From an uncultured Acidobacteriia bacterium (GTDB lineage: Bacteria; Acidobacteriota; Terriglobia; Bryobacterales; Bryobacteraceae), in assembly GCA_903907865.1 (NCBI GenBank), contig CAIVPR010000098.1, positions 62,001 to 126,000 on the forward strand: DNA of 64,000 nt. Reading direction: 5' to 3'. Shown piece by piece: positions 45,865 to 62,031 of this stretch; position 1 is the first letter of the stretch; every line of letters starts with the position of its first letter. The notes under the pieces are model-generated. The model saw nothing but the letters and a program-made list of their open reading frames with translations, searched no databases and had not been told where the DNA came from. The position numbers and the translations under genes are program-made.

Positions 45865-46662
45865 ATGGGCAACCGCTTCCATGTCGCAGTATCGATTCTG
45901 ATCGGGATGGGGATCTCGATCCCGGCCAGCGCCAGCAGCTTGGGTGTCTACCTGTCGGCCCCGTCGGCTGTCACGAGCTCGGTAACGTTCACCAACAGCT
46001 CGAGCCTGACCACGGAAACGTTCGACAACAAGAACAACACCTACAGCACCTACAGTTCCGCAATCGGCACCTACACGGGCACCATGAAGGTGCAGTCGGC
46101 GGACTCCTACGGCGGCGCGGGCGGCACCAGCTACATGACCTTCGGCGCGCAGAGCGGGACCTCGACGCCGGTGACGCTAACGCTCAAGACCCCCGAGACC
46201 TACTTCGGCTTCTACTGGTCGGCGGGCGATGCCAACAACGGGATCGCGCTCTATTCCGCAGGCACCCAACTGGCGCATTTCACCACGGCCGACATCAAGA
46301 ACATGCTCGCCGGTCCCACGGTCACCGCGATCAACGGATCGACCTACCAGTCGAGCTCCTACAACTGCAACCCGAGCAACACAGCGCAGGATTGCTCCGA
46401 GCCCTTCGCCTTCGTCCACCTGATCGCCACGGGATTCACCTTCGACAAGATTGTGTTCGACAACAACACCACGACCGCAACGGGTTTCGAAAGCGACAAC
46501 CACACCGTCGGCAGCGGCACCGTGGTGTTGCCGAACACCTTCGTGAGCGTGGAAACCTTGTCCGTCACTGCACAAGGGGCATCCACACCGGAACCAGGCA
46601 GCGTCGCGCTCATGTTCGTGGGCGTCGGAATGATCGCCTACCGTCGGCCGCTGCGCCGGTAA
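45865..46662 (+). CDS. PEP-CTERM anchored secreted protein
   Basis: A 265-residue exported protein. It has a signal peptide (residues 1-24), a Ser/Thr/Asn-rich beta-type body with few charges, and the C-terminal PEP-CTERM tripartite tail: TPEPGSVALMF, a membrane helix, then YRRPLRR. Such tails are cut by exosortase and the protein ends in the exopolysaccharide or cell surface. No exosortase gene lies in the window. The body has no recognised family. Confidence 0.85.
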   Translation: MGNRFHVAVSILIGMGISIPASASSLGVYLSAPSAVTSSVTFTNSSSLTTETFDNKNNTYSTYSSAIGTYTGTMKVQSADSYGGAGGTSYMTFGAQSGTSTPVTLTLKTPETYFGFYWSAGDANNGIALYSAGTQLAHFTTADIKNMLAGPTVTAINGSTYQSSSYNCNPSNTAQDCSEPFAFVHLIATGFTFDKIVFDNNTTTATGFESDNHTVGSGTVVLPNTFVSVETLSVTAQGASTPEPGSVALMFVGVGMIAYRRPLRR

Positions 46663-46815
46663 GGAAATCCAGCCAGCTATGTAATGGACGCTCCACGCGC
46701 GACATTACAAAGCTGAGTGCGACACATTTCCAAATCCAACCCTGTCAACCCAGAGGGACAACCACCATCGCAAGGGAAAAGGGGTGGAATCTCGCCAGAG
46801 CCACACGGTTCCGCC

Positions 46816-46821
46816 TACAAT
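46816..46821 (+). promoter_or_regulatory. Possible -10 box for the wall-regulation cluster
   Basis: TACAAT ends 6 bases before ATG 46828, the first gene of the FHA-phosphatase-kinase-wall enzyme cluster. The 46663-46827 gap has no other feature that I can support. Confidence 0.45.
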
Positions 46822-46827
46822 GGGTGC

Positions 46828-47739
46828 ATGACCGGTCGGCCAGCCGCCCGCCTTCAAGGCGACGATCTCGTGCAAGCAATCCTCGGCAGCATGGAGGCGG
46901 GGCACAACCGCATCCGGGGCAAAACCATAGTTCCAGCCATCTACCGGATCTATCTGAATCCGGAAGACCATGCCGTGCTCCGCGACATCGCCCCGTTCGT
47001 CGTGGCCGAGATCCGCGCCGCGCTGGACGACAGCCTGGCCAACCTCAACGGTGCCAACCGGCTTCTAAGGGGTGTCATTAGCAAGATTGGCCTCGACCGC
47101 AACAAGAACGAGTTTGTGCGCATCCCGGGCGAGTGGACCGTGGAAATCCACCCGGACGCCGACGACACACTGCAGCCGGGCGAAATCGAAGTGGTTTCCG
47201 AACTCGGGTCGCCCGAAAAAGCCGATTACGGTGCCGGTTCCCAGACGCGCCGGATCCTGCCGAAATCCGCCGAAGCCGCGGTCGAAAGTCCGACCTTGGC
47301 TGCGGAATCCGCTCCTGTGCAGGAGGCGGAGGTGGAAAAACCCGACACCGATTCAACCCGGCGCACAACCCCGTCCGCCCCACCCATTTCGGAGGATACG
47401 GCCCCTACCACCGACCCCACCAGCCGTAAGGTGCTGGCAACCATCCGCTACACCGACAACGCCGGGCCCAACGTTCTCCAAGTCACCAAGGATCAAATCA
47501 TGGTCGGCCGTGGCGGACGCTCCTATTGGGTGGACGTGCGCCTCGACGCGCCTACCGACGTGTCGCGCGAGCACTGCCGGATCCGCCATGAAGCCGGTCG
47601 ATTCCTGTTGGAGGATCTGAGCCAGTACGGAACCAAAGTCAACGGCGTGCCCGTCGAAAAGGACAGGCCGGTCACACTGCCAGACCGGGCGACCATCCGC
47701 TTGGCGGAGGTGATCGACTTGGAATGGGAGACTGCGTGA
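46828..47739 (+). CDS. FHA-domain protein (FhaA-like, N-terminal DUF3662-type domain)
   Basis: A 303-residue protein. Residues about 10-130 look like the N-terminal FhaA-type domain (YRIYLNPEDHAVLRDIAPFV, then EWTVEIHPD). A Pro/Thr/Glu-rich linker follows. The C-terminal FHA domain (about 205-295) has IMVGRGGRSYWVDV, SREHCRIRHE and GTKVNGVPV with the Ser-Arg-His and Asn-Gly phosphothreonine-binding residues. FHA proteins bind phosphorylated partners of Ser/Thr kinases. It heads the cluster that holds the phosphatase, kinase and cell-wall fusion. ATG 46828 is preferred over the open frame further upstream. Confidence 0.85.
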   Translation: MTGRPAARLQGDDLVQAILGSMEAGHNRIRGKTIVPAIYRIYLNPEDHAVLRDIAPFVVAEIRAALDDSLANLNGANRLLRGVISKIGLDRNKNEFVRIPGEWTVEIHPDADDTLQPGEIEVVSELGSPEKADYGAGSQTRRILPKSAEAAVESPTLAAESAPVQEAEVEKPDTDSTRRTTPSAPPISEDTAPTTDPTSRKVLATIRYTDNAGPNVLQVTKDQIMVGRGGRSYWVDVRLDAPTDVSREHCRIRHEAGRFLLEDLSQYGTKVNGVPVEKDRPVTLPDRATIRLAEVIDLEWETA

Positions 47740-47837
47740 CGGATCTTCTGGCATGGCGCACTGAATTGTTGGTTGCAATGGCAGTCGTCGTAGCGCTGTT
47801 GGCCGTGGTGTCGGTATGGAAGGAGCGCCGGCGGTGA
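47736..47837 (+). CDS. 33-residue single-helix membrane peptide
   Basis: A tiny frame from GTG 47736 to TGA 47837. It overlaps the FHA stop and the phosphatase start by 4 bases each (GTGA twice). The peptide reads VTDLLAWRTEL, then the hydrophobic helix LVAMAVVVALLAVVSVW, then KERRR; this is one membrane segment with a basic cytoplasmic end. The double stop/start overlap and good membrane pattern support real translation. No family is known to me; it could assist the kinase, phosphatase or SEDS-PBP fusion. Confidence 0.6.
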   Translation: MTDLLAWRTELLVAMAVVVALLAVVSVWKERRR

Positions 47838-49447
47838 CCGGAATCCCCCTGATCGCGGCCACCGGCACCGACATGGGCCGCCGCCGCACCAACAACGAGG
47901 ACTTGGCGCATGTCGACGCCGCCCGCGGGCTGTTCATCGTGATCGACGGTGTCGGCGGCCACGCGGCTGGCGAAACGGCCGCCGCGACCGCCCTCGAAGT
48001 CCTCAAGGAACGCCTCGAGCGCGAGGTTGGCTCGCCGGAGCAGCGACTCCGCGAGGCGATTGCGCTCGCCAACAACGAAATCCACCGCCTGGCCGGTACA
48101 AACCCGGAATGGAACGGCATGGCCTGCGTCCTCACGATCGCCCTCGTGGAAGACGGCGTCGTGCATGTCGGCCACGTGGGCGATTCACGCCTGTACCTCC
48201 TCCGGCCGGGCTTCATCGAGAAAAAAACTTCCGACCATTCCCCAGTCGGCGAGCGCGAGGACCGTGGCGAACTCAGCGAAACCGATGCCATGCGGCACCC
48301 GCGCCGCAATGAGATCTTCCGCGACGTTGGCAGCGAGGACCGCACGCCCGACGACCCCAATTTCATCGAGATCACGAATTTCCCCATGCCCGCCGACGGG
48401 GCTCTGCTGCTGTGTTCCGACGGCCTGACCGACTTGGTGGAGAAGGCCACCATTGCGGCGGGCATGGAACTCTACGCGCCAGACTACGACGCCGCCATCC
48501 AAGCCTTGATCCGCGCAGCCAATGACGCGGGAGGCAAGGACAACATTACAATTGCCGTGGCCGCCGCTCCGGGCTATGGCAAGACGGAAGCGGTTCTCCC
48601 GGTTGCCCTGCCGACCAGTTTTGCCACCAAGGCCGGAGGCGGCTCCAAGTCCCGCACCAGATGGGGAGTGGTTGCCGCAGGTGTTGTTGCCGGGATGTTG
48701 TTGGGCGCTGCGGGCGTCGCCGGGTGGGTGTATGGCACGCGCCCTGTGCCAGTCGTCGGCCCCAGGACTTGGAAGGTTCCGGCAGACGGCGCAATTCAGC
48801 AGGTCCTGCGCGTGGCCAAGCCCAAGGACACTGTCTTGATTGCCGCCGGCACCTACGCCGGGCCCGTGATGTTGAGCCCCCGAGTGGCCGTCCGCGCTGA
48901 CGGCACGGGAGAGGTTGTCCTCACATCGACCGAGCCTGGCCCGATCGTCGTGGCTGCGAATGTCGCCGGTGCGTTGCTGGAGGGCGTGACCGTGAGGGGA
49001 ACACGCGGCGATTCAGACACCACTGGCATCGACATCGTGGGCTCCGACGTCGTCATCCGCGATGTACAGGTGGAAAGAGCCTACACCGGAATCCTCGTTC
49101 ACGGCGACGCGGCGCCCCTCATCACCCTATCGCGCATTGTCGACAACCTTGCGACGGGTCTCGAGATCCGCGACACGGCCCACCCGTCGGTGGAAAAGAA
49201 CGTCATTGCGCGCAACGGCAAGGCCAAGCCCGGCCCGGAAAAGCCGGGAATCGACATCCGGGACCTCGCCAAGCCCGTCCTGCATCTGAACGCCGTCTTC
49301 GACAACGGTGCCGAGCCGGTTTGGATCGAGGTGCTGCCCGAGTATCCCGAGAATCTCTTCGCCGGACCAGCGCCCCGGACCACGCACAAGCTGAAATCGC
49401 ACAAGACCGCCGACAAGACTTCCTCGCCGAAGGGGGATCGTCAATAA
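47834..49447 (+). CDS. PP2C phosphatase with membrane helix and outer beta-helix domain
   Basis: A 537-residue protein. Residues about 1-245 form a PP2C Ser/Thr phosphatase: RRRTNNEDLAHVD, GLFIVIDGVGGHAAGE, HVGHVGDSRLYLL, HPRRNEIFRDVG and LLCSDGLTDLV, the metal Asp residues all present. A membrane helix follows at about 277-300 (VVAAGVVAGMLLGAAGVAGWVY). Residues about 310-500 repeat short beta units with NosD/pectin-lyase character (DTTGIDIVGSDVVIRDVQVE, HGDAAPLITLSRIVDNLAT). So it links an inside phosphatase to an outside carbohydrate-binding-type domain. GTG 47834 overlaps the small peptide stop; ATG 47816 is possible. Confidence 0.85.
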   Translation: MTGIPLIAATGTDMGRRRTNNEDLAHVDAARGLFIVIDGVGGHAAGETAAATALEVLKERLEREVGSPEQRLREAIALANNEIHRLAGTNPEWNGMACVLTIALVEDGVVHVGHVGDSRLYLLRPGFIEKKTSDHSPVGEREDRGELSETDAMRHPRRNEIFRDVGSEDRTPDDPNFIEITNFPMPADGALLLCSDGLTDLVEKATIAAGMELYAPDYDAAIQALIRAANDAGGKDNITIAVAAAPGYGKTEAVLPVALPTSFATKAGGGSKSRTRWGVVAAGVVAGMLLGAAGVAGWVYGTRPVPVVGPRTWKVPADGAIQQVLRVAKPKDTVLIAAGTYAGPVMLSPRVAVRADGTGEVVLTSTEPGPIVVAANVAGALLEGVTVRGTRGDSDTTGIDIVGSDVVIRDVQVERAYTGILVHGDAAPLITLSRIVDNLATGLEIRDTAHPSVEKNVIARNGKAKPGPEKPGIDIRDLAKPVLHLNAVFDNGAEPVWIEVLPEYPENLFAGPAPRTTHKLKSHKTADKTSSPKGDRQ

Positions 49448-49450
49448 CCC

Positions 49451-51325
49451 ATGGCTATGGATCCGCAAAGCTTCGGCAGATACCGGAACCTGCGTAAGCT
49501 GGCGGGCGGCGGCATGGCGCGCGTCTACCTCGGCGAAGACCTGCAGATGAGCCGCACCGTCTTCCTCAAGCTGATCGATGCGGCGACCGACGAAGAAGGC
49601 CGCGAAATCATCGACGCCGAACGGCGCGGCGCTGCGCTGCAAGACCAACTCGCCCACCGGGAGCCCGGCGGCCGCGTGGCCAAGATCTACGAGATCGGCG
49701 ATCTCGACGGCTATTTCTTCATCGCCATGGAGTTTGTGGAAGGCGAAGACCTGTCCGAGATCATCCGCCGCGGTCCCATCGCCCCCGGCCGCGCGGTAAC
49801 CATCGCCCTCAACGTTTTGGCCGTCCTCGGCCGTGCCCACGGCTTCCAAGCGTGGGTGCAGGACCGCGAGTACCGGGGCATCATCCACGGCGACATCAAG
49901 CCCCAAAACATCCGCATCACGCCCAACGGGGCGGTGAAGCTGCTGGATTTCGGCATCGCCAAGGCCATTACGGCCACGCGGGGCAAAACCCAGAACTATT
50001 TCGCCAGCGCCCGCTATTGTTCGCCGCAGCGCCTCGAATCGGGCGAGGTGGACGCGCCTGCAGATCTCTGGTCGGTCGCAACTGTGCTCTTCGAGATGCT
50101 CACGTCGCGGCCCTACTTCGACGCCACCGACCTCCCGAAGCTGGAAGCCGCCATCCGCAAATACGATTCGCTGAAACAGACGGTCATGCTGGTGCCGTCG
50201 GACCTGCGCGAAATTCTGCGGAAAGCCCTTGATCCCGATCCGCGCAAGCGTTTCCATACGGCGGCCGAGTTCCAAGCTGCTCTGGAGACCCGCAGTGTCG
50301 CCCAAGCAGAAGCCGCAGACCCCGACGCCACGCGCCGGACCACGAATCCGCCCCCGCCCTCGCCGATGGACCCGGACGCGACGCGGCGCTCCACCCAGGT
50401 GCCGCCGCGGACGCAGACTCCACCATCCGCGAAGCCCTCCACCCCTTCGCCCTTCAAGTTCCCGTGGAAAATCAGCCTGACCGGCTTGGATTCGATTCGG
50501 ACAAAAGCCGCTGTCGCGCTGACCCTCTGCCTGGCTGTGTTCCTCTGGTTCACCTACGAGGTCCGCATGTGGCGCAAGGCCGATGCCCTGCGCTCCACCA
50601 TAGAGTCCGGACAGATTTCGTTCGACGACGCCGAGCGCGCACGCTTGGCCATGGAGAAGCAGGCTTGGCTCCCCGCGCCGATATATCCCGCCCGTAACGC
50701 TCTGCGCGACCGCTACCGCACCGATGCCGAGCACGTGATCGACAACTACCGGAGCTTCAGCCCGGGTGCCGTCGTCACCAAGGCGGACTGGACGCGTGCT
50801 CGGAACTTTTTGGCCAAGGCAGTCCGCCTCGCTCCGGACGACAAGGTCGTCCGTGCCGACTTGCACGTTGTCGACGGCCATCTGAAGATCCGGGCCGCCG
50901 ACCTGAAGGGCGCTCTGTCCGAGTTCGAGGACGCGAAGAAGCTCCAAAACTCATCGCCCGACCCGCATCTGGGCTTGGCGGCGGTCCACCTGATGACCGG
51001 CGAGCTCGACCGCGCCGAGGATGAGTTCCAGCAGGCCTCCAAGCTGGGCTTCCACCCGGGCCGCCTGCAGCAGCAGTCCTTGGCCTACGCCTACAAGTCG
51101 CGCGCCGATCGCGGCATCGCCCAAGCAAAACTGTTGCACGACATTGACAAGATGGTCGAGGCCTACAAACGCGCCGACGCGGATCTTGAACGGGCGCAGA
51201 ACCTCTATGCAGCTATAAGTCCCTACGGCTTGGCGCAGGCCGACCGGATCGCAGCCCAGCGCCGGGAAATCCAGTTCAAGCTGTCGGAAGCCGGACTTGC
51301 CCAGCCGCAAGGGGGCACCCGGTGA
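49451..51325 (+). CDS. Transmembrane Ser/Thr protein kinase with TPR-like sensor part
   Basis: A 624-residue Hanks-type kinase. Gly loop LAGGGMARVYLGE (18-29), Lys40 in TVFLKLI, catalytic loop HGDIKPQN (146-153; HGD instead of HRD), DFG at 166-168, and APE-like region CSPQRLESGE. A Pro-rich linker with repeated DPDATRRTT-like motifs spans about 290-330, the likely phosphorylation and FHA-docking sites. A membrane helix lies at about 350-370, then a helical TPR-like outer part (ALSEFEDAKKLQNSSPDPHL, LDRAEDEFQQASKLG). No PASTA domains are seen. It starts 3 bases after the phosphatase gene. Confidence 0.88.
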   Translation: MAMDPQSFGRYRNLRKLAGGGMARVYLGEDLQMSRTVFLKLIDAATDEEGREIIDAERRGAALQDQLAHREPGGRVAKIYEIGDLDGYFFIAMEFVEGEDLSEIIRRGPIAPGRAVTIALNVLAVLGRAHGFQAWVQDREYRGIIHGDIKPQNIRITPNGAVKLLDFGIAKAITATRGKTQNYFASARYCSPQRLESGEVDAPADLWSVATVLFEMLTSRPYFDATDLPKLEAAIRKYDSLKQTVMLVPSDLREILRKALDPDPRKRFHTAAEFQAALETRSVAQAEAADPDATRRTTNPPPPSPMDPDATRRSTQVPPRTQTPPSAKPSTPSPFKFPWKISLTGLDSIRTKAAVALTLCLAVFLWFTYEVRMWRKADALRSTIESGQISFDDAERARLAMEKQAWLPAPIYPARNALRDRYRTDAEHVIDNYRSFSPGAVVTKADWTRARNFLAKAVRLAPDDKVVRADLHVVDGHLKIRAADLKGALSEFEDAKKLQNSSPDPHLGLAAVHLMTGELDRAEDEFQQASKLGFHPGRLQQQSLAYAYKSRADRGIAQAKLLHDIDKMVEAYKRADADLERAQNLYAAISPYGLAQADRIAAQRREIQFKLSEAGLAQPQGGTR

Positions 51326-51334
51326 GGAACCGCC

Positions 51335-54300
51335 ATGGCCGTAAATAGATTCAGGGCTGGCGAATTGTCCGCTGCCCGCAACGTCCCGCAGCGCCCGAAA
51401 TCGGGCCAGGTTTTCGGCTTCCTGTGGTTGATAGTGGCGGCTCTCCTCGTTTCGGGAGCCTGGTGGCTGACCTATACGGCGAAACAGCGCCGGGCGGAAA
51501 CGCCGGTACCACTACTCAACTTGGTCGACCTTACCGGGTCCGAGCAGATCGAGCCAGCACTCACGGTGTTCACCAACTTGGAGGAGCGCGCCAGCGTCGC
51601 GCGCACGGTCTTCGCCGCGATCTCGGACCGTGGTGGCCGCATCTCCAACACCACCATCCTCTACCGACTCCAGAAGGACGGCACGCGGATCTTCACCTCC
51701 GGCCAGTTTTCACAATTCAAAACCAGAATCTCAGTGCGGAGTTGGGGGGATTTTCAAAAGGACTTCCGCTTGTGGGGTGGCGCGATCCTGGTTGCCTTCT
51801 TCCTCACCAGCCTCGTCTGGATGGCCCGGGGTTTCACGGGGCCGTGGATCTTCCTCCCCCTCCTACTCTTGGCGACAGGCATTGGACTCTGTTTGATGGT
51901 GGCCCTGCGCGATCCCCTGCGCGATACGCCGATCTTCGTTCCCTTTGCCCAGGGCGTCGTTGGTGGCTGCCTCATCATGCTTGCTGTGAGCTTCGTCGAA
52001 TGGGAGACCCGGTGGGCCAACCTGAGTTTTGTCCACCTCCTGGGCGCGATCGTCCTCTCGGTGGCTTTGATTTTGTTCGGCAGTGGACCGGTCGGCAGCG
52101 ACGCCAAGGTGAATCTCGGCCCCGCCCAGCCTGTGGAGGCGATCAAGATCCTCTTGGTATTCTTCCTCGCTGGGTTCTTCGGGAAGAAGTGGCCCCTGCT
52201 GCGCCAATTGAAGCAGAAAGGCGTCGCCGGTCTCGACATCCCCAAATGGGAACACGCCGTGCCGGTCGTTACCGGGGTGGCCGTTGCGGTCTTGTTCTTC
52301 TTCCTGCAAAAGGATCTTGGACCGGCGCTTGTCTTCGCCGCCGTCTTCCTCGCGCTCTACGCCTTGGCGCGGAACAAGGTCGGTCTGGCGATGGTCGGCG
52401 CGTCTGTCCTCATGAGCGCTTTCCTGGTCGGACACTTCCTCGGCGTCCCCCACACCGTCCACGAGCGCGTCGCCATGTTCCTCAATCCCTGGGACAACCC
52501 TGTTCACGGTGGCGACCAGGTGGTCCACTCGCTCTGGGCGCTGTCGTCCGGCGGACCTCTCGGTACCGGCCCGGGCCTCGGAGAAACCGACGTCATTCCC
52601 GCCGGCTACACCGACCTCATTGTCTCCGTGCTGGGCGAAGAATGGGGCTTCGCGGGCATCGTACTCTTCTTCGGAATCTTCGCGCTCCTGGTCTGGACCG
52701 GATTGCGGATCGCCAGGCGCGCCGCGTCGGACTACGCGATGTTCCTCTCGCTCGGCCTCACGCTCCTCCTCTCCGCCGAACTGCTGCTGATCTCGCTCGG
52801 AATCCTCGGCCTCTTCCCGCTCTCCGGCGTCGCGACGCCGTTCCTCAGCTATGGCCGCACCGCCATGCTGGCAAACTTCGCCATCGTCGGTATCCTGGTG
52901 TCGCTGGGGCGAAATTCCGCGCCGCTGGACCGCAACGCCCCCTTTCAGCGCGGCATCGCGTGGATTGGCGGCATCTTGGCGGTCGTCGCGCTCGCGGTTG
53001 TCGGCAAGGCCGCGTACGTCCAGGTGCTGCAGCCCGATGAATTCGCCGGCCGCGGCACCTTGGTCACTCAGGCCGATAAGGTCCGCCGCTATGCCTACAA
53101 CCCGCGCCTCACGGCAACCATCCGCGAATTGAAGCGTGGCGGCGTCTATGACCGCGACGGCCTCCCGCTTGCCACCAGTCGCTGGGAGGAATTGGTGCAG
53201 TACCGCGCCCGCTACGCCGATTTGGGCATCGACATCGACAAGGCCTGCAATCCCGCCGATCCCCGGCACTACCCGCTTGGCGCGGCAACGTTCCATCTGC
53301 TGGGCGACGTCCGCACCCGCGCCAACTGGGGTGCGCCGAACAGTTCCCTCATCGAGCGAGACGAGGCCCGCCGCCTCCAGGGCTTTGACGACCACGCCAC
53401 CATCGAAGAATTGAAGGATGCGGAGGGCAGGGAATTCCACGCCGTCCACTACGACTACCGTGAACTGCTGCCCCTGCTGCGACACCGCTGGGAGCCCGAC
53501 GACCCCGCCGTGAAGCGGGTCCGCGACCGCGACCGCGACGTCCACATGTCTATCCACGCGGGACTCCAAATGAAGTCCTTGGAGATCCTGAAGGCCCGGC
53601 TGGAGCAGTTGAAGATCAAGAGCGGGGCCGCAGTCGTGATGGATCCCGCGAACGGCGACTTGCTGGCCTCGGTCAACTGGCCTTCGCCGGCCTTCGACGA
53701 CCAGAAGCTGACTACAGGCGAATCCGCCGGGGCGCTGCTTGATCGCGCCCGCTATGGGCTGTATCCGCCTGGATCAACCTTCAAGGTGGTCACCGCGATC
53801 GCGGCCCTCCGCACCGATGTCGCCCTCGAACATCAGACCTACCAATGCATCCGCCTTCCCGACGGTCGGAATGGCAACTTCGTGGGAAATTCGAAACGGC
53901 CCATCCGTGATGACGTGGAGGATGTCACACCGCACGGCACTCTCGACATGCACCGCGCCATCATCGTCTCCTGTAACGCCTATTTCGCGCAACTGGGCAC
54001 GAACAAGGTGGGTGCGGAACGTCTCCTCGATACCGCGAAGCTGTTTGGCATCGCGGTCGCCAACCCCGCGACGGTGAAAAACCTTGGTCCCCAGATGCCC
54101 CAGGCATCCTACGGGCAGGGTCAGGTGGTCGTGTCGCCCTTTCAGCTCGCACGAGTGGCCGCAACGGTCGCCGGGGGCGGTATGATGCCGTTCGGGCGCT
54201 GGACCACGGACGCCTCCAACACGCGCACCCAGGCCCCGATCCAAGTACTGCCCGCGGACCACGCGGGAATTCTCGGCGACGACATGCGCGGCGTGGTCAC

Positions 54301-54547
54301 CCAGGGCACCGGGCGACGGCTTGCCGCCATCTCTCCGGCGATTGCTGGCAAGACAGGCACGGCGGAGCTGGCGAAGGCCCCGTCGCACGCTTGGTTCATC
54401 GGCTTCGCCCCGTATGGTGCGGCTGCGGGTCAGAAGCGGATCGCATTCTCCGTTCTGGCTGAGAATGGACAGTATGGCGGCACAGCGGCGGCACCGATTG
54501 CGGGCGACCTCGTGGTGGCTGCCCAGAAGTTAGGATTGATTCAGTAG
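51335..54547 (+). CDS. Fused SEDS glycosyltransferase (RodA/FtsW) and class B penicillin-binding protein
   Basis: A 1070-residue protein. Residues about 1-145 form an extra N-terminal unit with one helix and a soluble domain. Residues about 145-520 form a SEDS polymerase with ten or so helices; DLGPALVFAAVF, GPLGTGPGLGETDV and TDLIVSVLGEEWG are family landmarks with the catalytic Asp region. A helix at about 545-565 leads to a PBP dimerisation part and a transpeptidase with PGSTFK (Ser814, Lys817), SCN at 879-881 and KTG at 1006-1008. In other bacteria these are two proteins acting together to make peptidoglycan. A single chain here fixes their 1:1 ratio. Stop is followed 17 bases later by an FHA gene. 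Confidence 0.93.
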   Translation: MAVNRFRAGELSAARNVPQRPKSGQVFGFLWLIVAALLVSGAWWLTYTAKQRRAETPVPLLNLVDLTGSEQIEPALTVFTNLEERASVARTVFAAISDRGGRISNTTILYRLQKDGTRIFTSGQFSQFKTRISVRSWGDFQKDFRLWGGAILVAFFLTSLVWMARGFTGPWIFLPLLLLATGIGLCLMVALRDPLRDTPIFVPFAQGVVGGCLIMLAVSFVEWETRWANLSFVHLLGAIVLSVALILFGSGPVGSDAKVNLGPAQPVEAIKILLVFFLAGFFGKKWPLLRQLKQKGVAGLDIPKWEHAVPVVTGVAVAVLFFFLQKDLGPALVFAAVFLALYALARNKVGLAMVGASVLMSAFLVGHFLGVPHTVHERVAMFLNPWDNPVHGGDQVVHSLWALSSGGPLGTGPGLGETDVIPAGYTDLIVSVLGEEWGFAGIVLFFGIFALLVWTGLRIARRAASDYAMFLSLGLTLLLSAELLLISLGILGLFPLSGVATPFLSYGRTAMLANFAIVGILVSLGRNSAPLDRNAPFQRGIAWIGGILAVVALAVVGKAAYVQVLQPDEFAGRGTLVTQADKVRRYAYNPRLTATIRELKRGGVYDRDGLPLATSRWEELVQYRARYADLGIDIDKACNPADPRHYPLGAATFHLLGDVRTRANWGAPNSSLIERDEARRLQGFDDHATIEELKDAEGREFHAVHYDYRELLPLLRHRWEPDDPAVKRVRDRDRDVHMSIHAGLQMKSLEILKARLEQLKIKSGAAVVMDPANGDLLASVNWPSPAFDDQKLTTGESAGALLDRARYGLYPPGSTFKVVTAIAALRTDVALEHQTYQCIRLPDGRNGNFVGNSKRPIRDDVEDVTPHGTLDMHRAIIVSCNAYFAQLGTNKVGAERLLDTAKLFGIAVANPATVKNLGPQMPQASYGQGQVVVSPFQLARVAATVAGGGMMPFGRWTTDASNTRTQAPIQVLPADHAGILGDDMRGVVTQGTGRRLAAISPAIAGKTGTAELAKAPSHAWFIGFAPYGAAAGQKRIAFSVLAENGQYGGTAAAPIAGDLVVAAQKLGLIQ

Positions 54548-54563
54548 GGTTGATTCAAATAAG

Positions 54564-55337
54564 ATGAGCATCGTCGAAAAGCTGGAAAGAAAGATCGCCT
54601 CGCTGTTCCCCAAGTCCGGCGGCACGCGCGAGCCCCTCGAACTGCACCGGGAGGCCTTGGAGCGCCTGGCCGCCAAGTCGATCGCCGGCTTGCGGGGCGA
54701 GCGCGTCTTCCCTTTCGACCGGGTGGTTCTGGAATTCGGGGTCGACGACGCCGAGCGCCAGGCCGCCTTGAAAACGCTCTTTGAGCCGACGACGTTCGCC
54801 GCGCACATCCGGGCGGAGTTGGCGTCCTCTCGGATCACCCCGCCCGCCGAGTTGCGCGTCACCCTCGTCTTCAGTGCCGACGCGGAAGAGGAAATGCGGA
54901 TAACCTGCGAAAAGACCGAGCCGCCCCCGCCCGAGCCCGAAGTGCAACGCGCCCCCGCGCCATTCACGCCGGCGCGGCTGGCGGTGTTGGCGGGCACTGC
55001 TTCGGAGGTCGAATTCGTCTGCGAGAAGACGTTTCTGAACGTGGGCCGCGAAGAGTCCGTGCTCGATTCCGAGGGCCGTCTGATCCGGCGCAACGACCTG
55101 TTTTTCATCGGAGACGACAGCGACACCAACGCCAGCGTCTCCCGCGAACACGCCCACCTCCGTTTCGACACGTCCACCGGTGAGTGGCGGATTTACGACG
55201 ATGGCAGCCGCTACGGCACTGCCATCTTCCGCGCCGGACGCCGCATCGTTGTTCCTCCGCACTCGGCGCGAGGTGCGCTGCTCAAAGGGGGGGACGAGGT
55301 GTTCCTCGGCGAGGCCCGTATCGGATTCCAGCTGTAA
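54564..55337 (+). CDS. Second FHA-domain protein (FhaA-like)
   Basis: A 257-residue protein: N-terminal helical DUF3662-like domain (about 1-110; KLERKIASLFPKSGG, ALERLAAKSIAGLRGERVF), short Pro-rich linker, and a C-terminal FHA domain (about 145-257) with SREHAHLRFD and GSRYGTAIFR. The conserved Asn-Gly of the binding loop is replaced by GSRYGT, so binding may be altered. Likely an adaptor for the kinase encoded nearby. It ends the cluster. Confidence 0.83.
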   Translation: MSIVEKLERKIASLFPKSGGTREPLELHREALERLAAKSIAGLRGERVFPFDRVVLEFGVDDAERQAALKTLFEPTTFAAHIRAELASSRITPPAELRVTLVFSADAEEEMRITCEKTEPPPPEPEVQRAPAPFTPARLAVLAGTASEVEFVCEKTFLNVGREESVLDSEGRLIRRNDLFFIGDDSDTNASVSREHAHLRFDTSTGEWRIYDDGSRYGTAIFRAGRRIVVPPHSARGALLKGGDEVFLGEARIGFQL

Positions 55338-61423: not shown

Positions 61424-62031
61424 AGGTCCGGGTCTATTTCGAGGGCAGCAACCAGTTGCGCCAAGGCTTCAAGGCTTTCCTGATGAAGTGTGCGGGACAG
61501 ACTGGGCGATCACACTTCGACTTGGAAGTGGTGGCTGCCCAGAATGAGCCGATTGAGGACTTCCAACTTGCTTTGCAGACGCATGCCGACTCTACGGTCC
61601 TCCTCTTGCTTGACTCGGAAGAGCCACTGGACGCCAAATGTGTCAACCTGAAGCGCATCAAGCGACTCCGAGGAATCAATAGGAACCACATCTTCTGGAT
61701 GGTCCAACTAATGGAGGCTTGGTTCTTGGCCGATCACCATGCACTGCAAACGCACTTCAAACGGGACTTTCGGCACGACGTCCTCCCGCAGCACGTTGAC
61801 GTCGAGACGATTCCCAAACAGCTTGTACTGAAAGGGCTGAAGGAGTTAGCACGCAAACGGAAGAAGGGTGCGTACCATAAGGTTCAGGACGGCAGTGCTC
61901 TCCTGAATCTGATCGATCCGGTTGCCGTTGCCAGTCGCGCGCCCGAATGCCGACGCCTTTGCCAAACACTCCAAGCGCTAGCGGCGGTAAATAAGCCAAC
62001 GATCCCCGGGTTGTACCCACCCCACCGATAG
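61420..62031 (+). CDS. DUF4276 protein, partner of the AAA ATPase
   Basis: A 203-residue DUF4276 protein. Motifs: VRVYFEGSNQ with Glu8, VLLLLDSEEPLD with an acidic cluster near residue 62, MVQLMEAWFLADHHAL, ETIPKQLVLKGLKE and AYHKVQDGSALLNLIDP. The acidic positions recall a Toprim-type metal site. Its function is not established; in pairs with AAA_21 ATPases it is thought to be an effector in defence. GTG 61420 overlaps the ATPase stop, giving coupled translation. Confidence 0.8.
   Translation: MKVRVYFEGSNQLRQGFKAFLMKCAGQTGRSHFDLEVVAAQNEPIEDFQLALQTHADSTVLLLLDSEEPLDAKCVNLKRIKRLRGINRNHIFWMVQLMEAWFLADHHALQTHFKRDFRHDVLPQHVDVETIPKQLVLKGLKELARKRKKGAYHKVQDGSALLNLIDPVAVASRAPECRRLCQTLQALAAVNKPTIPGLYPPHR

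Follow-up and report, generated by a model that had tools for sequence, protein, structure and literature searches.

An acidobacterial kinase, phosphatase and FHA gene cluster with a fused SEDS-transpeptidase synthase, and its possible relation to the actinobacterial wall-synthesis locus

A six-gene cluster in an acidobacterial genome

We analysed a stretch of 64,000 nucleotides (hereafter the window) from an uncultured Acidobacteriia bacterium of the Bryobacteraceae (assembly GCA_903907865.1, contig CAIVPR010000098.1, forward-strand positions 62,001 to 126,000). At positions 46828-55337 of the window, six genes run on the + strand and encode a first FHA protein (FHA1), a 33-residue transmembrane peptide, a PP2C phosphatase, a Ser/Thr kinase, a SEDS-transpeptidase fusion and a second FHA protein (FHA2). 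A preliminary description of this DNA had named these six parts in this order; its coordinates were correct, Pfam confirmed the domains, and the order recurred at other loci as described below. Beyond that description we found a beta-helix in the phosphatase, a TPR region in the kinase and an additional N-terminal two-helix unit in the fusion. The features of the cluster are as follows.

46828..47739, + strand: FHA1, FhaA-type adaptor with an N-terminal FhaA_N-like domain and a C-terminal FHA domain (Pfam, hhalign)
47245..47253, + strand: candidate phosphosite Thr140 (GSQTRRI) in FHA1 (near-invariant Thr column; loose pattern)
47356..47367, + strand: second motif DSTRRTT, Thr177, in the FHA1 linker (core motif match)
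47736..47837, + strand: tiny peptide of 33 amino acids with a single transmembrane segment and an Arg cluster at the C-terminus (reading frame, conservation, synonymous versus non-synonymous differences)
47834..49447, + strand: PP2C phosphatase with a transmembrane segment and a C-terminal right-handed beta-helix at about 48953-49315 (Pfam PP2C_2, Beta_helix)
49451..51325, + strand: membrane Ser/Thr kinase with a TPR region at the C-terminus (Pfam Pkinase, TPR_19)
50318..50392, + strand: kinase linker repeats DPDATRRTT (Thr294) and DPDATRRST (Thr311) (motif count versus shuffles)
51335..54547, + strand: SEDS domain (about 51962-52915) fused to a class B transpeptidase domain (about 53624-54511), 1070 residues (Pfam)
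about 51401-51826, + strand: extra N-terminal two-helix unit of the fusion (alignment of 13 fusions; low-confidence model)
54564..55337, + strand: FHA2, second FhaA-type adaptor (Pfam FHA, hhalign, model)

The GTG start of the tiny gene overlaps the FHA1 stop, and its own stop overlaps the GTG start of the PP2C gene; these two 4-base overlaps are followed by gaps of 3, 9 and 16 bases, spacing as in a tight operon. The PP2C gene has an alternative ATG start at 47816, and the GTG at 47834 is more likely because it is coupled by overlap to the stop of the tiny gene. Pfam matches above the cut-offs were FHA (54 bits) in FHA1, PP2C (46), Pkinase (105.7), FTSW_RODA_SPOVE (170.6), Transpeptidase (130) and FHA (24.1) in FHA2. 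Three promoter-like sites were seen where 1.0 would be expected, including one immediately ahead of FHA1 (46792-46821), and terminator-like sites numbered 10 against 7.5 expected; neither was used as support.

Distribution and gene order of the locus

Our sample of relatives comprised 40 genomes plus the window's own genome; some were incomplete, and absence of the fusion is therefore not certain. The fusion was present in 13 of the 18 genomes of the same genus (split over two contigs in G018, and as the SEDS half alone at a contig end in G012), in two of six same-family genomes from other genera (G019, which holds it twice, and G024) and in 0 of the 16 genomes from other families of the order. 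At an E-value of 1e-100 or better it was found in 11 of 396 genomes of the phylum, with the window's own genome and those of L152 and L153 counted in. The phylum scans scored the best candidates of each genome (two in the fusion scan, six in the later scan for FHA2-like genes), and weak or extra copies may be missed.

All five large genes lay on 10 of the 17 stretches from relatives, always in the order FHA1-PP2C-kinase-fusion-FHA2, and the other seven stretches, two of them halves of the G018 locus, end at contig ends and agree in order. Further out we found nine complete loci of the same order (L052, L053, L055, L056, L145, L146, L147, L148 and L150), cut loci that agree in order (L054, L139, L144, L149 and L151), a rearranged locus (L152) and one with a divergent fusion and a PP2C gene in which no FHA match was found (L153); L051 and L034 are one contig, which entered the count once. 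The order is thus kept at 19 further complete acidobacterial loci in total, so the arrangement is not due to chance. The locus is uncommon, yet its gene order is stable. The preliminary description would have counted a lack of this order in most relatives against its reading; as regards presence that is the case, since most relatives are without the fusion, but wherever the fusion exists its neighbours nearly always stand in this order.

Among the matches listed, the nearest named relative was an uncultured Acidobacteriia bacterium, with 82% identity of the fusion. The scan of named genomes covered at least 80 loci, and other phyla with such fusions may exist. The genome G019 carries two whole copies of the cluster (L044 and L048); the PP2C frame of the second copy is just 334 amino acids long and so is likely too short for a beta-helix.

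Homology of the FHA proteins to FhaA

FHA1 scored 23.8 bits with the Pfam family FhaA_N, just below the cut-off of 25, and its orthologue at L147 scored 28.1 bits, over that cut-off; the Pfam scan gave no FhaA_N match for the window's FHA2. Against a reference profile built from the N-terminal domains of 14 actinobacterial FhaA proteins, hhalign matched the FHA1 N-terminus (22-row profile) with an E-value of 9e-10 over 96 columns (probability 96.5%) and the FHA2 N-terminus (24-row profile) with 1.5e-8 over 120 columns (probability 95.5%), whereas five decoy profiles gave 0.12 or more. Profile comparison at the sequence level showed the N-termini of FHA1 and FHA2 to be homologous to FhaA.

A structural model of FHA2 adopted the FHA fold, with a predicted local distance difference test score (pLDDT) of 82, and the 50 structure matches listed for it were, by their titles, FHA-domain structures, including 3oun, the FHA domain of FhaA. 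No FhaA chain came up when a PDB set was searched with the N-terminal sequence profiles of FHA1 and FHA2. In six genomes of family f31 (L200-L205) we observed an FHA2-like gene with no kinase, PP2C or SEDS match on the stretch examined, and we rejected the idea that these represent a split locus in relatives lacking the fusion. By eye, a frame resembling aspartate decarboxylase adjoins the FHA2-like gene in L202, and probably in L201 too.

The fused SEDS-transpeptidase synthase

The fusion holds SEDS glycosyltransferase and class B transpeptidase domains in one open frame with conserved motifs, and both activities are predicted. The motifs PPGS.FK, SCN and KTGT are invariant across the 13 aligned fusions. 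The model of the fusion was of low confidence (pLDDT 68). A helix-hairpin-helix reading of its N-terminal unit, made by eye, was dropped, as Pfam gave no support for it in 13 members and the model was too weak.

Profile scores suggested a relationship for the SEDS half. With a profile of the SEDS domains of 15 fusions, 11 actinobacterial RodA rows scored 182-228 bits, 7 clostridial rows 117-189 and 7 canonical FtsW/RodA rows, including the genome's own copies, 82-120; with an actinobacterial SEDS profile, the 15 fusions scored 192-234 bits and the canonical rows 130-198. The SEDS half is likely of the actinobacterial RodA kind. In an unrooted SEDS tree of 40 rows the fusions formed one clade (support 100/100) outside the actinobacterial rows, and the seven canonical rows, own copies included, formed a clade without fusions (100/100); the fusion therefore did not arise by recent copying of the SEDS genes of its host. 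We rejected this tree as proof of a shared actinobacterial lineage: its 100/100 branch is the stem of the canonical clade, and places the fusion outside that clade and no more. Approximately unbiased (AU) topology tests rejected neither a fusion-actinobacterial grouping (p-AU 0.173) nor a fusion-firmicute grouping (p-AU 0.0877). For the transpeptidase half, the best solved sequence relative was the mycobacterial PbpA structure 3un7, at 128.3 bits, with other kinds at 124.4 and 118.4.

The genome also holds two separate pairs of SEDS and penicillin-binding protein (PBP) genes, named ftsW/ftsI and rodA/pbp2 by their arrangement alone. Given these two pairs, and given that 5 of the 18 genomes of the genus lack the fusion, the fused protein is probably a third synthase that would be conditional rather than essential.

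Further single-frame SEDS-transpeptidase fusions were observed, among the matches listed, in Coriobacteriia and another actinobacterial metagenome-assembled genome (MAG) (L057 and L058) and in Lachnospiraceae (L061, L101 and L128), and a Holophagaceae MAG (L108) carries one of 1696 amino acids. In the trees, the coriobacterial, actinobacterial and lachnospiraceal fusions group with the separate genes of their own phyla, and for this reason the fusion of SEDS and transpeptidase seems to have arisen at least three times. A PP2C-SEDS-transpeptidase-kinase-kinase run was also seen on a contig titled as a Bifidobacterium breve MAG (L067); in both the SEDS and the transpeptidase tree this run clusters with mycobacterial sequences, and the contig is likely mis-binned.

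Kinase and phosphatase

The kinase matched TPR_19 at 25.9 bits in addition to Pkinase, with the TPR region following the membrane segment; of the three relatives scanned for TPR, two gave weak matches under the cut-offs and one gave none. Pfam gave no PASTA match in the window's kinase. Its best NCBIfam family was PknB_PASTA_kin, at 189.8 bits against a cut-off of 450, a weak label that is uncontrolled against the other kinases of the genome. Across the genome, which holds 32 kinase hits, a single PASTA match was found (G000:C97; L192, L209), and it lies on a PBP frame rather than on a kinase. In the kinase tree, from which ten long-branch, duplicate or off-target rows had been dropped and which used 14 cluster and 15 actinobacterial rows out of those available, the 14 cluster kinases formed one clade (100/100). 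A quick tree had hinted that the kinase is a sister of PknA and PknB, but the careful tree did not show this, and the assignment was abandoned.

The phosphatase matched PP2C_2 at 45.2 bits and Beta_helix at 34 bits, and the beta-helix follows the membrane segment. It is also found in the phosphatases of L052, L056 and L145, but not in those of L053 or L147. The best NCBIfam family was Stp1/IreP, at 192.4 bits and under the cut-off of 230. Of the four other PP2C hits in the genome, L195 was left out of the PP2C tree for a profile mismatch, and one gene was entered twice (L159 and L196).

The tiny membrane peptide gene

Of the 25 FHA1-PP2C junctions read, 23 contain a short frame that encodes a single membrane span and has 29-45 codons, in most cases 29-34; it was missing at L044 and L152. 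Summed over four pairs, synonymous differences per site (pS) were 0.55 against 0.18 for non-synonymous differences (pN), with a Fisher p of about 1e-11; the remaining two frames gave the reverse pattern. The tiny frame is a real protein-coding gene under purifying selection.

The tiny gene stands where fhaB stands in actinobacteria, and this shared position, together with a similar look (R-Y-G-F-L), prompted the idea of a shrunken FhaB. We do not claim this, as hhalign gave an E-value of 0.019 against values down to 0.0051 for decoy transmembrane segments. Kinship with the FhaB transmembrane segment was likewise not supported by hydropathy-preserving shuffles of 11 chosen peptides, in which 202 of 2000 nulls scored as high; in the shuffle test against the FhaB anchor, the L047 peptide alone stood out clearly. 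The peptide is a candidate subunit that annotation may overlook because of its size.

A Thr-Arg-Arg motif in the kinase, FHA1 and the synthase tail

In 19 of 30 kinases the linker between the kinase domain and the membrane contains one to three copies of D-x-A-T-R-R-T or a similar sequence, and the core motif occurs 34 times in the 30 whole kinases against 2.1 expected from shuffles. As a control within the genome, 26 other kinases could be read, of which two (L159 and L161) hold one core motif each and none a repeat. The kinases compared came from 25 of the 30 kinase loci, including that of the window, and from L157 and L177, in neither of which a motif was present; L158, L176 and L180 were unread, and two of the genome's 32 kinase hits were given no locus. 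In FHA1 the core motif occurs 8 times against 1.46 expected, but in 5 of 24 rows, three of which are of the window's lineage; it shows no excess in PP2C (1 against 1.6), the fusion (2 against 2.67) or FHA2 (1 against 0.97).

A Thr following the N-terminal domain of FHA1, in a G-x-T-R-R-I-like context, is nearly invariant among the relatives in a 13-row alignment, in which the window's piece ends just before the column. The loose pattern matches 23 of 24 rows, although the match in L149 is displaced, and the residues after the Thr differ in some rows (T-T-L in L048, L053 and L056). FHA domains read phosphothreonine together with the residue at +3. The N-terminal cytoplasmic tail of the fusion carries M-A-V-T-R-S-T or a similar sequence in 21 of 30 fusions, with the rest of the tail variable; besides the window's fusion, L034 and L046, those of L047, L055 and L147-L150 lack the motif. 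As the FHA1 and tail patterns were chosen after the sequences had been seen, their counts are descriptive. The sharing of this Thr motif suggests a phospho-docking circuit, and it supplies specific candidate sites for the phosphorylation of the FHA proteins or the wall enzyme that the preliminary description predicted. In the window's lineage Asn or Asp stands at the position of the tail Thr, as if a phosphosite had been lost or mimicked.

Comparison with known systems

The actinobacterial locus fhaA-fhaB-pstP-rodA-pbpA-pknA-pknB is well known, according to passages of two papers (PMC6554272, PMC11898655), and many actinobacterial contigs among the matches listed showed the order FHA-PP2C-SEDS-transpeptidase-kinase. 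As there, the acidobacterial FhaA-type adaptor is encoded beside a kinase, a PP2C and the SEDS glycosyltransferase and class B transpeptidase domains; the FhaA N-terminal domain is homologous and the SEDS half is, by profile scores, most similar. Unlike in actinobacteria, the acidobacterial kinase precedes the synthase and has no PASTA match, a 33-residue transmembrane peptide takes the fhaB position in place of FhaB (a transmembrane anchor with an FHA domain), and the locus ends with a second FhaA-type protein. SEDS and transpeptidase form one frame, whereas rodA and pbpA are separate and followed by the kinase, and the acidobacterial phosphatase and kinase carry a beta-helix and a TPR region, respectively. 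With a fused synthase and neither a PASTA kinase nor FhaB, the acidobacterial locus does not simply duplicate the actinobacterial one.

A pknB-fhaA cluster is described for a subset of Firmicutes in a passage of PMC6554272. At the clostridial loci L059, L063 and L089 we found SEDS-transpeptidase pairs with an FhaB-like gene upstream. These resemble the acidobacterial locus in having an FHA gene beside SEDS and a class B transpeptidase, and of the groups compared they are scored best by the transpeptidase half; unlike it, they have no kinase or phosphatase match alongside, and their SEDS and transpeptidase genes are separate. Natural SEDS-PBP fusions are already in print (PMC10449877) and likewise unite polymerase and crosslinking halves on one polypeptide. 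The published passage names no regulator or phylum, and the acidobacterial fusion differs in lying in a kinase/FHA operon and in its extra N-terminal unit. A literature search that left out most subscription journals found no paper linking Acidobacteria to this locus. The actinobacterial locus and natural SEDS-PBP fusions are thus already known; what is worth follow-up is the conserved micropeptide and the Thr motif.

Origin and proposed function of the locus

The preliminary description had left the choice between an ancient locus and convergent assembly. We favour shared ancestry with the actinobacterial locus, without regarding it as proven, mainly because both FHA N-termini match FhaA and because actinobacterial RodA gives the highest scores with the SEDS half; the transpeptidase, kinase, PP2C and SEDS tree data do not decide. 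On these matches we take the FhaA-type adaptors at least, and probably the SEDS half as well, to descend from an ancestor shared with the actinobacterial locus. Our overall interpretation, to which we give a probability of about 0.55, is that the cluster is an acidobacterial, rebuilt form of an old phospho-regulated wall-synthesis locus related to the actinobacterial one, and that its synthase is under phospho-control.

In this scheme the TPR region of the kinase and the beta-helix of the phosphatase would be extracytoplasmic sensors of the envelope. The kinase would phosphorylate the Thr residues of the D-x-A-T-R-R-T repeats in its linker and of the T-R-R-I site in FHA1, and the two FHA adaptors would bind these phospho-sites and bring kinase, phosphatase and fused synthase together at a single place on the membrane. 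The M-A-V-T-R-S-T tail of the synthase may, in most relatives, form a third docking site, and phosphorylation may set when the extra polymerase-crosslinker works. A more specific version is tentative: T-R-(R/S)-(T/I) might be a docking code common to the kinase linker, the FhaA-type adaptor and the synthase tail, by which the FHA adaptors clamp the synthase to the kinase, with the conserved membrane peptide, mostly of 29-34 residues, as a subunit and the Asn or Asp of the window's own lineage perhaps freeing or locking the synthase.

Several observations weigh against this interpretation. The N-termini of FHA1 and FHA2 match each other poorly (E-values of 0.0027 and 0.021), and the window's FHA2, judged by eye, lacks the Asn-Gly that is usual in FHA domains. 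The central branch of the unrooted SEDS tree joins fusion and canonical rows (92/80), leaving the sister group open, and the fusion transpeptidase profile scores clostridial rows (171-231 bits) above actinobacterial rows (143-210), the latter being about level with canonical rows (124-205). Holding the cluster kinases and 15 actinobacterial kinases together, apart from 26 other kinases of the genome, cost 0.00 log-likelihood units (p-AU 0.482), which neither shows nor rejects that grouping, and the PP2C tree gave one clade with weak placement; a shared origin is not proven by these two trees. Eleven of the 30 kinases, some of them from distant relatives, lack the kinase motif. The tail Thr is replaced in the window's own fusion (51335-51350), in L034 and in L046 (Asn/Asp; MAVN, MAID), and docking through the synthase may therefore not apply to this organism.

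It is unlikely, in our judgement, that Acidobacteriota and Actinobacteria each brought a kinase, a phosphatase, FHA proteins and a wall synthase together on their own. Such convergent assembly would fit the different order, with the kinase before the synthase and the second FHA gene last, the fused synthase and the lack of PASTA and FhaB, and the SEDS, transpeptidase, kinase and PP2C trees or scores do not establish a common origin of the whole; against it stand the FhaA N-terminal domain in both FHA proteins and the SEDS half, which in both profile directions is closest to actinobacterial RodA when compared with the canonical rows. We hold it equally improbable that ancestry is shared while the kinase and FHA adaptors serve other targets, such as a lipid II flippase, as published for mycobacterial FhaA, with the fusion as a mere operon neighbour. 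Mycobacterial FhaA lies in a conserved operon and, in passages of PMC11898655 and PMC6180346, is reported to bind phosphorylated MviN and CwlM. The window's own Thr-less synthase tail and the six f31 genomes, whose FHA2-like genes have no synthase on the stretch examined, would agree with such other targets, but fusion, kinase, phosphatase and both FHA genes have stayed adjacent over deep divergence, and the tail motif is kept in 21 of 30 fusions.

The patchy presence (11 of 396 genomes in the phylum, two copies in G019) and the position of the family's fusions at two places in the trees, some beside L053 and L056, would also be expected if a ready-made locus had spread laterally and had come from Actinobacteria in recent times. 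We consider this very improbable as a recent event, as all fusion rows fall into a single clade (100/100) to which no actinobacterial row belongs; an old transfer, or transfer among acidobacteria, may have taken place.

If the proposed phospho-regulated locus of shared ancestry is correct, FhaA-linked control of wall synthesis would be older, or more widespread, than the Actinobacteria and the subset of Firmicutes in which the passages cited above place it. Direct phospho-control of a SEDS-transpeptidase unit would also become addressable on one polypeptide with named candidate sites, and the fusion, which fixes polymerase and crosslinker at 1:1, would suit structural work.

Neighbouring gene

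Directly upstream of the cluster, at 45865-46662, lies a gene for a PEP-CTERM-like protein, with a weak Pfam match of 18 bits against a cut-off of 20.7.

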